Below, in pieces: positions 6,040 to 55,580 of a DNA stretch of 64,000 bases. Position numbers and translations under genes: made by a program. The stretch comes from Branchipolynoe longqiensis (Eukaryota; Annelida; Polychaeta; Phyllodocida; Polynoidae). Positions within the stretch are counted from its first letter, which is position 1, and each line of letters opens with the position of its first letter. Where the stretch lies: the NCBI GenBank assembly GCA_030323885.1, contig CM059196.1, forward strand, positions 35,504,481 through 35,568,480, in the 5' to 3' direction. The notes under the pieces were generated by a model that saw only the letters and a program-made list of their open reading frames with translations, was not told the origin of the DNA and did no database searches.

Positions 6040-6879
6040 GTAGTGTAGTGGTCTGCACTGACCTCTCAGGCAAGGAGTCGCATAGACAGGTAGGTGTGGG
6101 TAGTGTGTTGATATCAGGGAGCCTAGGTGGTACGTGGTGTAATGGTTAGCACACCGGCCCGGAATTCAAAGAGATGTGGGTTCGAGTCCCACTCTAGGCA
6201 TAATATTTCCCATTTTCATCACCCTGTGACACTGGTTGCCATGACCATGATCCTGTACAAGCTACGCGCTGTATAGTTGTTGAACCTACCCTGTGTATGT
6301 AAGTGTGTTGCATTGCCTGAATGTATGTAATTGTAAGCATTAAAATACTTACAATTCCAGGGGGACGAGTGTAGTGGTCTGCACTGACCTCTCAGGCAAG
6401 GAGCCGCATAGACAGGTAGGCATGGGTAGTGTGTTGATATCAGGGAGCCTAGGTGGTGTATTGGTTAGCACACTGGCCCGGAGTGCAAATAGATGTGGGT
6501 TCGAGTCCCACTCTAGGCACAATATTTCCCATTTTCATCACGCCCCGTGACACTGGTTGCCGTGACCATGATCCTGTACAAGCTACGCGCTGTACAGTCG
6601 TTGAACCTACCCTGTGTCTGTAAGTGCGTTGCATTGCCTGAATGTATGTAATTGTAAGCATTAAAAGACTTACAATTCCAGGGGGACGAGTGTAGTGGTC
6701 TGCACTGACCTCTCAGGCAAGGAGCCGCATAGACAGGTAGACGTGGGTAGTGTGTTGATATCAGGGAGCCTAGGTGGTGTAATGGTTAGCACACTGGCCG
6801 GAATGCAAAGAGATGTGGGTTCGAATCCCGTTCTAGGCACAATATTTCCCATTTTCATTCATCACCCCCACGACAGTAG
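6040..6879 (+). mobile_element. T-element array: LTR-internal-LTR-internal-LTR
   Basis: Three ~185-bp direct repeats (6044-6231, 6370-6552, 6691-6875) separated by two 138-bp internals (6232-6369, 6553-6690). Each repeat starts TGTAGTGGTC and ends ..GACA. Each internal starts C-TGGTTGCC and ends AGGGGGACGAG. The whole array is flanked by GTAG at 6040-6043 and 6876-6879. This matches a TRIM (terminal-repeat retrotransposon in miniature) expanded by unequal recombination between LTRs. Each repeat contains a tRNA-like module with a strong B box (GGTTCGAGTCC). No gag-pol coding capacity, so movement would need enzymes from another element. A tandem tRNA-derived SINE or satellite is the alternative; the defined ends and flanking duplication favour TRIM. 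Confidence 0.75.
6447..6518 (+). other. tRNA-like cloverleaf inside the T-element LTR
   Basis: The 72-nt layout fits a tRNA. Acceptor stem GCCTAGG pairs with TCTAGGC (one G-T). D arm GTGT/GCAC has an 8-nt loop, and T arm GTGGG/CCCAC has loop TTCGAGT. The variable loop is 5 nt. The anticodon stem is weak (about 3 of 5 pairs), and loop position 33 is usually C rather than T, so decoding function is unlikely. Equivalent modules lie at 6121 (7-bp insertion), 6768, 40059-40130, 55159-55230 and 55476-55547, and on the minus strand in the 25-26 kb copies. Probably a Pol III promoter derived from a tRNA. Confidence 0.65.
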
Positions 6880-7452: not shown

Positions 7453-7489
7453 CAAACAACATATTTGATTAGAATGTGTCTGCATCTCA

Positions 7490-7616
7490 GTATGGTGATT
7501 TCATCAGGGAGCCTAGGTGGTGTAATGGTTAGCACACTAGCCCTGGAATGGCAAGAAGTGTGGGTTGGAATCCTGCTCAAGGTGCAATATTTCCCATTTC
7601 CATCACCCCTACAACA
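7490..7616 (+). mobile_element. 5'-truncated, diverged T-element LTR
   Basis: Carries ATCAGGGAGCCTAGGTGG, TGTAATGGTTAGCACACT and ATTTCCCATTTCCATCACCCC, ending CAACA where intact LTRs end ATGACA. The first ~70 bp of the LTR are missing. A LINE fragment starts at its 3' boundary. Confidence 0.65.
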
Positions 7617-17974: not shown

Positions 17975-18224
17975 TGTCAGCATGCTACCGGAAGGACTCG
18001 GCACTTCCGGGACCTGGAGGAGGAGCTGCCAACGCAAGGATATAGCTGTCTGTACATGTGCCTGAAACTTTCGCTCGAGCCTGACCTGTTTGGAAGGTGA
18101 GCAAAGTTTCAGGTGTGTGTAAGGGCGGTATGGCAACACGAGCTAACGACAGCATTGGACCAACACCTCACCAGTTAGCGGAATTCTATATGTGGGTTTG
18201 TATAGCAGCTTCAACTTCAGACAT

Positions 18225-19675: not shown

Positions 19676-20139
19676 TCTCGGACGCACGGTAGTGGGTGGC
19701 GGGGGACAGGGCTCTCTAGAGACCAGGAGTTGAACTCTCTGTTGGGGAAGGCTGTTGTTTTCTCTGCCAGCCTTGCTACAATGGGGAGTCTCCTGGCATA
19801 TCACAAGCGCGGTCATTATGAGGAACTGGCCTCTGATTGGATGATATTCACTCAGCGAGAAGGCCCGAAGCTGGTTACCCACGAGCACAGGTGGGAACTG
19901 TTTTGAACGGTCTCACAGATTCGCTGGTTCTGGCAAGCTGCATCCAAACCACTTTCTCTTTTAAACCAAAGAAATGAAGGCAATTTGTGTGTGCTGCTCT
20001 GTGCTTTACTTTGGAGGGTGAAGATGTGTGTTTTCCGTTTAGCCAGTTTCTCTTCGATGAATGGCGTATGGGTGAATGGTCCCTATTTCCTCCCTGTTAA
20101 TGGTGCATTATTTGTGTGTTTTCTGGTTAGCTAGTTCCT
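19676..20139. other. Unique sequence
   Basis: No gene or element recognised. The right end grades into the 43-bp array. Confidence 0.45.
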
Positions 20140-21480
20140 CTTTGATAATGATGTATTATTCATGGATTTTCTGGTGAATCCTCTTTGATAATGATGTATT
20201 ATTCATGGATTTTCTGGTGAATCCTCTTTGATAATGATGTATTATTTATGGATTTTCTGGTGAATCCTCTTTGATAATGATGTATTATTATTCATGGATT
20301 TTCTGGTGAATCCTCTTTGATAATGATATATTATTTATTGATTTTCTGGTGCTTTGATAATGATGTATTATTCATGGATTTTCTGGTGAATCCTCTTTGA
20401 TAATGATGTATTATTCATGGATTTTCTGGTGAATCCTCTTTGATAATGATGTAATATTCATGGATTTTCTGGTGAATCCTCTTTGATAATGATGTATTAT
20501 TCATGGATTTTCTGGTGAATCCTCTTTGATAATGATGTATTATTCATGGATTTTCTGGTGAATCCTCTTTGATAATGATGTATTATTCATGGATTTTCTG
20601 GTGAATCCTCTTTGATAATGATGTATTATTCATGGATTTTCTGGTGAATCCTCTTTGATAATGATGTATTATTCATGGATTTTCTGGTGAATCCTCTTTG
20701 ATAATGATGTATTATTTATGGATTTTCTGGTGAATCCTCTTTGATAATGATGTATTATTTATGGATTTTCTGGTGAATCCTCTTTGATAATGATGTATTA
20801 TTCATGGATTTTCTGGTGAATCCTCTTTGATAATGATGTATTATTTATGGATTTTCTGGTGAATCCTCTTTGATAATGATGTATTATTCATGGATTTTCT
20901 GGTGAATCCTCTTTGATAATGATGTATTATTTATGGATTTTCTGGTGAATCCTCTTTGATAATGATGTATTATTATTCATGGATTTTCTGGTGAATCCTC
21001 TTTGATAATGATGTATTATTCATGGATTTTCTGGTGAATCCTCTTTGATAATGATGTATTATTTATGGATTTTCTGGTGAATCCTCTTTGATAATGATGT
21101 ATTATTCATGGATTTTCTGGTGAATCCTCTTTGATAATGATGTATTATTCATGGATTTTCTGGTGAATCCTCTTTGATAATGATGTATTAATATTCATGG
21201 ATTTTCTGGTGAATCCTCTTTGATAATGATGTATTAATATTCATGGATTTTCTGGTGAATCCTCTTTGATAATGATGTATTATTCATGGATTTTCTGGTG
21301 AATCCTCTTTGATAATGATGTATTATTTATGGATTTTCTAGTGAATCCTCTTTGATAATGCTGTATTATTTATGGATTTTCTGGTGAATCCTCTTTGATA
21401 ATGATGTATTATTTATGGATTTTTTTGTTAATCCTCTTTGATAATGATGTATATTTATGGATTTTCTTGTGAACTATTTC
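20140..21480. repeat. 43-bp minisatellite, about 31 units
   Basis: Unit: GTATTATTCATGGATTTTCT followed by GGTGAATCCTCTTTGATAAT and GAT. Most units are near-identical, differing only at TTC/TTT before ATGG, which implies recent amplification. A few carry a 3-bp ATT insertion, and edge units are more diverged. Confidence 0.95.
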
Positions 21481-25244: not shown

Positions 25245-25747
25245 TGTCATGGGGGTGATGAAAATGGGAAATACTGCGCCTAGAGCGGGACTCGAACCCA
25301 CATCTCTTTGCATTCCGGGCCAGTGTGCTAACCATTACACCACCTAGGCTCCCTGATATCACCACACTCCCCACGCCTACCTGTCTATGTGGTTACTTGC
25401 CTGAGAGGTCAGTGCAGACCACTACACTCGTCCCCCTGGAATTGTAAGTCTTGTAATGCTTAAAATTACATACATACAGGCAATGCACTAACACATACAT
25501 ACACAGGGTAGGTTCAACAACCATACAGCGCAAAGCTTGTACAGGATCCTGATCACGGCAACCAGTGTCGTGGGGGTGATGAAAATGGGAAATACTGCGC
25601 CTAGAGCGGGACTCGAACCCACATCTCTTTGCATTCCGGGCCAGTGTGCTAACCATTACACCACCTAGGCTCCCTGATATCAATACACTCCCCACGCCTA
25701 CCTGTCTATGTGGTTACTTGCCTGAGAGGTCAGTGCAGACCACTACA
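25245..25747 (-). mobile_element. T-element, LTR-internal-LTR (minus strand)
   Basis: LTRs 25245-25426 and 25566-25747 (182 bp each) flank a 139-bp internal region. On the minus strand the LTR reads TGTAGTGG..CCCCATGACA, and the internal starts CTGGTTGCC and ends AGGGGGACGAG. The two LTRs are nearly identical to each other. Target duplications are not clear in this AT-rich context. Confidence 0.75.
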
Positions 25748-26016: not shown

Positions 26017-26524
26017 TGTCGTGGGGGTGATGAAAATGGGAAGTATTGTGCCTAGAACGGGACTCGAACCCACATCTCTTTGCATTCTGGGCCAGTGTGT
26101 TAACCATTACACCACCTATGCTCCCTGATCTCACCATACTGCCCACGGCTACCTGTCTATGCGGCTCGTTTCCCGACAGGTCAGTGCAGACCACTACACT
26201 CGTGCCCCTGGAATTGGAAGTCTTTTAATGCTTACAATTACATACACACAGGTAATGCTCTTATATATACATATACATACACAGGGTAGGTTCAACAACT
26301 ATACAACACATAGCTTGTACAGGATCCTGGTCATGGCACCAGTGTCATGGGGGTGATGAAATTGGGAAATATTGTGCCTAGAGTGGGACTCGAACCCACA
26401 TCTCTTTGCATTCTGGGTCAGTGTGTTAACCATTACACCACCTAGGCTCCCTGATATCACCATGCTGCCCACGCCTACCTGTCTATGCGGTTACTTGCCC
26501 CAGAGGTCAGTGCAGACCATTACA
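26017..26524 (-). mobile_element. T-element, LTR-internal-LTR (minus strand), second unit
   Basis: LTRs 26017-26198 and 26343-26524, internal 26199-26342. Slightly more diverged than the 25245 copy (for example GAACGGGACTCG and CCATTACA), consistent with duplication followed by drift. Confidence 0.75.
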
Positions 26525-39977: not shown

Positions 39978-40167
39978 GTAGTGTAGTGGTCTGCACTGAC
40001 CTCTCAGGCAAGTAACCACATAGACAGGTAGGCGTGGGGAGTGTGTTGATATCAGGGAGCCTAGGTGGTGTAATGGTTAGCACACTGGCCCGGAATGCAA
40101 AGAGATGTGGGTTCGAGTCCCACTCTAGGCACAGTATTTCCCATTTTCATCACCCCCATGACAGTAG
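39978..40167 (+). mobile_element. T-element solo LTR with GTAG flanks
   Basis: A single 182-bp LTR (39982-40163), TGTAGTGG..CCCCATGACA, with GTAG immediately on both sides (39978-39981, 40164-40167). A lone terminal repeat with a flanking duplication is what LTR-LTR recombination leaves behind. It contains the best tRNA-like cloverleaf (40059-40130). Confidence 0.8.
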
Positions 40168-55087: not shown

Positions 55088-55580
55088 AGTCTGCACTGAC
55101 CTCTCAGGCAAGTAACCATATAGACAGGTAGGCATGGGTACTGTGGTGATGTCAGGGAGCCTAGGTGGTGTAATGGTTAGCACACTGGCCCGGAATGCAA
55201 AGAGATGTGGGTTCGAGTCCCACTCTAAGCGCAATATTTCCCATTTTCATCACCCCCATGACACTGGTTTCCGTGACCAGCATCCTGTACAAGCTATGCG
55301 CTGTATTGTTGTTGAACCTACCCTGTATATCTGTAAGTGCACTGCCTGTATGTATGTAATTGTAAGCATTAAAAGACTTACAATTCCAGGGGGACGAGTG
55401 TAGTAGTCTGCACTGATCTCTCAGGCAAGTAACCACATAGACAGGTAGGCGTGGGTAGTGTGGTAATGTCAGGGAGCCTAGGTGGTGTAATGGTTAGCAC
55501 ACTGGCCTGGAATGCAAAGAGATGTGAGTTCGAGTCCCACTCGATGCGCAATATTTCCCATTTTCATCACCCCCATGACA
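55088..55580 (+). mobile_element. T-element, LTR-internal-LTR
   Basis: LTRs 55088-55263 (first ~8 bp missing) and 55399-55580, internal 55264-55398 (CTGGTTTCCGTGACC.. to ..AGGGGGACGAG). tRNA-like modules lie at 55159-55230 and 55476-55547. The second has a T at the anticodon-loop position that is C in most copies. (TA)n flanks obscure any target duplication. Confidence 0.75.

Follow-up and report, generated by a model that had tools for sequence, protein, structure and literature searches.

A dispersed repeat of Branchipolynoe longqiensis with a tRNA-like module in its LTR is very probably a Helenus-type TRIM

The stretch of Branchipolynoe longqiensis DNA analyzed here (64,000 nucleotides; hereafter the window) holds a 182-bp repeat that folds in part like a tRNA and is flanked on both sides by GTAG, raising the question of whether it is a tRNA SINE, a scattered satellite, or the LTR of a retrotransposon without genes. 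A sequence-only reading had proposed the last of these, i.e., a TRIM with a tRNA module inside its LTR. This proposal was borne out both by structure (an LTR-internal-LTR organization, TG..CA ends, a primer-binding site [PBS] for tRNA-His, and a purine tract) and by insertion mode (4-bp target duplications, a palindromic target site, and empty sites), and we consider it very probable that the repeat belongs to a Helenus-type TRIM family, and hence to the non-autonomous LTR retrotransposons. Across the 64-kb window, 11 LTR matches were detected in six places, ten of them at 89-100% identity and one, a relic, at 83%:

39982-40163, + strand: solo LTR, 182 bp, TGTAGTGG..ATGACA
39978-39981, + strand: left target-site duplication, GTAG
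40164-40167, + strand: right target-site duplication, GTAG, as read in the sequence
6044-6875, + strand: tandem array of three LTRs (LTR-INT-LTR-INT-LTR), internals at 6232-6369 and 6553-6690
25245-25747, - strand: complete copy (LTR-INT-LTR), internal at 25427-25565, in AT-rich DNA, without an exact 4-bp duplication
26017-26524, - strand: complete copy (LTR-INT-LTR), internal at 26199-26342, flanks GTAT/TTAT
55089-55580, + strand: copy with a 5'-truncated first LTR and a complete 3' LTR, internal at 55264-55398
7489-7609, + strand: old LTR relic of a related family, 83% identity

Elsewhere, the window includes a mir-87 microRNA precursor (18051-18124, + strand, 59.6 bits in Rfam), which points to a protostome host, and a tandem array of 31 copies of a 43-bp unit (20136-21473, 95% matches), and Pfam returned no family for the six ORFs tried out of the 26 window ORFs of at least 140 aa.

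A complete copy reads LTR(182)-internal(138)-LTR(182) and spans about 502 bp. The repeats of ~182-188 bp with TG..CA ends that had been described are represented by the 182-bp solo LTR between its GTAG flanks; LTRs begin with TGTAGTGG and end in ATGACA or ACGACA. The ~138-bp internals reported between LTRs were likewise recovered, running from CTGGTTGCCGTGACC to AGGGGGACGAG, the latter being a purine-rich tract directly 5' of the TG of the 3' LTR (column conservation 0.94-1.00). By column, conservation averaged 0.971 in the tRNA-like module, 0.954 in the LTR 5' of it, and 0.950 in the LTR 3' of it. The element is short and without mobilisation proteins: in each of five copies or arrays from the window, the longest frame opened by ATG measured 32-89 aa, the frames being judged by their length.

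Genome-wide counts were taken on the 1.85-Gb assembly (1914 contigs), of which contigs C1 to C18, at 48-189 Mb each, make up 95%, C19 being 36 kb long. The 31-nt LTR end occurred 44,082 times at ≤2 mismatches and the 30-nt internal start 13,074 times; the control counts were 0 for both, so neither pattern is a product of chance. No exact match to the 31-nt piece was found in viral contigs. LTR-LTR divergence within 44 two-LTR elements had a median of 2.75% and ranged from 0 to 10.4%, and insertion therefore seems to have gone on until recent times. Older relatives are common too, as judged from sequence identity in seven 10-kb stretches at arbitrary round coordinates: four of these stretches held seven LTR matches, four of which showed 74-80% identity. 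A few copies (L088-L091) carry many single-base losses that may be assembly errors rather than mutations.

Copies of this kind could in principle be units of a scattered satellite DNA, and arrays with up to six LTR ends do exist. The first 100 exact LTR-end places fell into 60 groups, i.e., 31 single places, 22 pairs, five triples, one group of four, and one of six, with 34 of 40 within-group spacings at 319-322 bp. The predominance of single places and pairs speaks against a satellite, with the proviso that the grouping took exact matches alone and that some groups may have further, mismatched LTRs. In addition, among 93 arrays (two LTRs in 66, one in 17, three in nine, none in one), 66 started and stopped exactly at LTR borders, and 4-bp duplications flanked seven of the eight distinct three-LTR arrays with exact ends. 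With such fixed borders and duplications, we rejected the satellite, whose probability we regard as negligible.

The loci behind these arrays came from the best LTR matches, from 40 C1 stretches surrounding the first exact matches of the internal pattern, from the window, and from the seven arbitrary stretches; the choice of good LTRs or exact internals means that decayed and solo copies are under-counted. Identical 4-bp flanks bordered 35 of 49 distinct exact-ended arrays, compared to a mean of 3.1 and a maximum of 9 over 1000 shuffles. In the same set, other flank lengths matched rarely (3 bp, 0; 5 bp, 1; 6 bp, 6, against a shuffled mean of 0.9; 7 bp, 0), and nine of the 14 arrays without a 4-bp match were one base off. 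In a larger set of 64 distinct arrays whose outer ends are exact, 45 had identical 4-bp flanks (two repeats of flanks having been dropped from each set) and 19 had no exact match; by type, duplications were found for 34 of 50 two-LTR arrays, seven of eight three-LTR arrays, and four of six solo LTRs. The three-LTR array in the window is itself bordered by GTAG, at 6040-6043 and 6876-6879. Seven of the 45 duplications read TATA, and in TA-rich tracts the length of a duplication is ambiguous and palindromes come cheaply.

Reconstruction of 45 empty sites yielded a palindromic target, AT-R-[NTAN]-Y-AT, the profile of which correlated with its own reverse complement at 0.82 (n=45). A palindromic target preference is expected of a retroviral-type integrase. 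Direct comparisons with empty sites, which here are paralogous repeats and not orthologous alleles, were obtained by searching with the joined flanks (≤120 bp) of 70 copies: a spanning homologue (≥78%) was found for 20, and 15 of these 20 spanned junctions were ungapped, that of the window copy among them, with L050 and L051, which have common flanks, counted twice. For the window copy, four empty paralogous sites were detected (L081, L017, L036, L083), three of which have one GTAG where the window has GTAG-LTR-GTAG, and the fourth CTAA. Homologues were also available for three copies without an exact duplication. Two of these, L014 and L049, aligned to sites lacking exactly 4 bp, and thus look like duplications altered later; the third, L063, showed a 10-bp gap against its homologue. 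One further copy, L012, sits inside a tandem satellite, the adjacent units of which act as empty sites.

These insertion patterns also bear on the possibility of a tandem or dimeric tRNA SINE mobilised by a LINE, an origin that would fit both the tRNA-like, Pol III-type promoter and the spacing of tandem copies at about 320 bp. Against it stand the exact 4-bp duplications in 45 of 64 arrays, the palindromic target, the TG..CA ends at the outer borders, and empty sites that lack exactly the element plus 4 bp. Moreover, none of 66 exact-end arrays had at least 15 A in the 20 bp after the duplication, the mean A share being 0.37 on the right vs 0.30 on the left; this tail test covered A-richness. 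The SINE, contradicted for the sampled copies, was rejected on the duplications, the fixed borders, the empty sites, and the lack of an A-rich tail, and we hold it to be highly improbable. The sequence-only reading had named missing 4-6-bp duplications or poly-A tails as marks of a SINE or satellite; what was found is duplication in 45 of 64 arrays and an A-rich tail in 0 of 66.

Given a TRIM, what is the tRNA-like sequence in its LTR? The relevant features of the window copy are as follows:

40059-40130, + strand: tRNA-like module, 72 nt, with acceptor arm GCCTAGG/TCTAGGC, D arm GTGT/GCAC, and T arm GTGGG/CCCAC; anticodon stem broken
40066-40076, + strand: A-box-like sequence, TGGTGTAATGG, column conservation 0.97-1.00
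40110-40120, + strand: B-box-like sequence, GGTTCGAGTCC, column conservation 0.96-1.00
40144-40147, + strand: TTTT, a possible Pol III stop, 13 nt 3' of the module

The module occupies LTR positions 78-149; Rfam assigned 51.1 bits to tRNA (RF00005) at 40059-40131, and ARAGORN placed its call at 40059-40132. All ten Rfam tRNA matches in the window fall inside LTR matches, and the eight "tRNA-Ser" calls made there by ARAGORN are these LTR modules. The claim that every LTR embeds such a fold stood for intact copies and failed for older relatives, whose arms have decayed, and for the first LTR of the 6044-6875 array, to which Rfam gives no tRNA. The arms themselves are as had been claimed: across 87 distinct modules of 72 nt, 91-99% form the acceptor, D, and T pairs. 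In the anticodon stem, however, two of five pairs were formed in only 1-2% of these modules, i.e., broken in nearly all of them, which makes a working tRNA unlikely: the module retains promoter boxes and outer arms and is probably not a functional tRNA. Present tens of thousands of times, it could give rise to many spurious "tRNA-Ser" genes when the genome is annotated.

The A and B boxes, which we take to be such by their position, appear only slightly better kept than the remainder in seven older relatives, where conservation was 84% for the A box, 83% for the B box, 80% for the whole module, 76% 5' of the module, and 82% 3' of it. Of 114 LTRs, 111 had a run of four or more T, and in 92 such a run began at LTR position 163; among 67 internals, one had a T4. 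Selection on the run was unsupported, since shuffled copies from the window gave a T4 in 15% of LTRs and a T4-free internal in 81% of cases. From the A and B boxes alone, we infer that the module may be transcribed by Pol III.

Alternatively, Pol II may transcribe the TRIM, whose tRNA-like piece would then be a passenger or serve another role, e.g., as an insulator or RNA signal. This alternative would be compatible with the small conservation excess of the boxes, with a T4 run no better than chance, and with a Pol III assignment drawn from sequence boxes. Nevertheless, the retention of acceptor, D, and T arms and of A and B boxes next to a broken anticodon stem suits a promoter better than a passenger, and boxes are conserved across Helenus families according to the passages of Kojima 2024 (PMC10886601) cited here. 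We regard Pol II transcription as unlikely, and favor a TRIM whose LTR includes a Pol III-type promoter.

The PBS begins one base after the LTR and corresponds to tRNA-His. Six of 30 tRNA-His-like places in the host genome were examined, five of which ARAGORN calls tRNA-His. Five host tRNA-His loci end in GGTCACGGCA, the end of the sixth (L098) being divergent, and a perfect PBS is therefore TGGTGCCGTGACCAGGAT. We scored the 84 internals that start at position 1. When one extra T following TGGT is ignored, one mismatch to the site remains in 72, two in four, and none in one; among those without the extra T, two are perfect and two have one mismatch, and three internals fall outside both types. 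The share with the extra T is biased upward, as internal loci on C1 were picked by a pattern containing it; 28 copies starting with CTGGTTGCCGTGATCAGGATC also have the extra T, though they were not selectable by that exact pattern.

Two older relatives, L087 2539-3026 (- strand) and L068 1618-2034 (+ strand), with an LTR identity of about 74-79%, have a PBS without the extra T, and on this comparison the extra T looks like a younger change. A tentative and rather doubtful extension is that the most amplified lineages of the family prime with tRNA-His via a site whose heritable extra T forms a one-base bulge. If true, the PBS would be passed on through the RNA template without being recopied from the primer tRNA, or else the actual primer would be a tRNA-His variant bearing one additional A; in either case, this would be a specific, testable feature of how a Pol III-type TRIM hijacks Gypsy machinery. 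The module as its own primer was rejected: over the first 40 bases of the internal, it offers at most 5 nt of perfect complementarity, as opposed to 11 nt for tRNA-His.

Sites for tRNA-His were detected at 6,416 places genome-wide at ≤1 mismatch (control 0). Among 12 exact places, seven belong to the studied family or its older relatives (L104, L105, L106, L108, L109, L114, L115), four to one other family (L107, L111-L113), and L110 to neither. This other, dispersed family has a perfect 19-nt tRNA-His site after ..GGTTAAAC, and its LTR-side end is unlike that of the studied family; L107 and L113 could be read up to a run of N. A separate locus, L103 (G000:C1:5350869-5350969, - strand), is a tRNA-His gene that encodes CCA and has inverted TTAAAC-TGGT ends on both sides; these flanking ends correspond to the sequence on the LTR side of the other family primed by tRNA-His, and the locus may record the joining of a primer tRNA to an element.

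A life cycle can be proposed for the studied TRIM. The tRNA-like promoter in the 5' LTR would drive synthesis of an RNA, probably by Pol III, that reads through into the 3' LTR; its R region would start near the beginning of the module and stop at the TTTT (LTR positions 163-166). Reverse transcription would be primed by tRNA-His and carried out with proteins from an autonomous Gypsy-type element, the integrase of which would insert the product. Solo LTRs, the window copy among them, would then result from recombination between LTRs, and arrays of three or more LTRs from unequal exchange.

The autonomous partner was not found among 12 places, inspected in part, of the 34 returned by two pattern searches (21 places with a control of 10, and 13 with a control of 1). 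From the 21 places, ten were taken as 1-kb stretches: L088-L091 are the studied family, L095 holds a studied-family copy beside the pattern match, and L093 a piece of an LTR, 54 bp long. No other LTR element with genes was seen in the portion viewed of each of the ten, about 530 bp; the remainder of these stretches was compared with the studied family alone. Two of the 13 places were examined, L116 being the studied family and L117 having no BLAST match to it; L117 contains a 142-aa open frame that is LINE-like to the eye and has no Pfam match at 0.001.

The idea of a TRIM that carries a tRNA is not new: TRIMs with tRNA-derived sequence in the LTR were published in 2024 as Helenus (Kojima 2024, PMC10886601). 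According to that paper, Helenus elements of animals make 4-bp duplications, some families of bivalves and vertebrates are primed by tRNA-His, tandem arrays occur (LTR-11_DR), and the partner is likely to be Gypsy; Table 1 of the paper places molluscan Helenus hosts in Pteriomorphia only. The present family displays the tRNA-derived LTR sequence, the short gene-less TRIM structure, the tRNA-His PBS, the purine tract, and the 4-bp duplications. On these descriptions, the resemblance extends to a size of a few hundred bp, to A and B boxes in the tRNA-derived sequence, to a PBS and PPT, to 4-bp duplications, tRNA-His priming (in some Helenus families), and tandem arrays, and to a module not complementary to the PBS, whereas the extra T in most sampled PBSs sets the present family apart. 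Its 44,082 LTR ends (31-mer, ≤2 mismatches) are about eight times the largest number in the main text of PMC10886601, 5,575 LTRs, which were counted differently (>90% length and identity). The family looks like a new Helenus family, as compared with the published description of Helenus. In the literature from 2024 on, "Helenus" appeared, among the matches listed, in PMC10886601 only, and TRIMp3 as a transposon term, judged by title, was likewise confined to that paper.

Other TRIMs are more distant. Cassandra of plants and Ajax of nemerteans share a Pol III-type gene piece in the LTR, which is 5S rRNA instead of tRNA, as the cited parts of PMC10886601 describe. The animal biv-TRIM (Satovic 2019, PMC6934838) is similar in its solo LTRs and TDRx_I(x-1) arrays, yet, in the sections cited here, has repeats of 202-218 bp and an inner part of 77-80 bp (here 182 bp and 138 bp), a PPT of GGGGAGA for most (here AGGGGGACGAG), no clear PBS, and no tRNA reported in the LTR.

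Taken together, for a kind of element first described in 2024, the B. longqiensis family provides data of unusual extent and clarity: the sequence itself reveals target preference, the length of the duplications, empty sites, and the primer. The family is also well suited to testing whether Pol III does drive an LTR element in animals.
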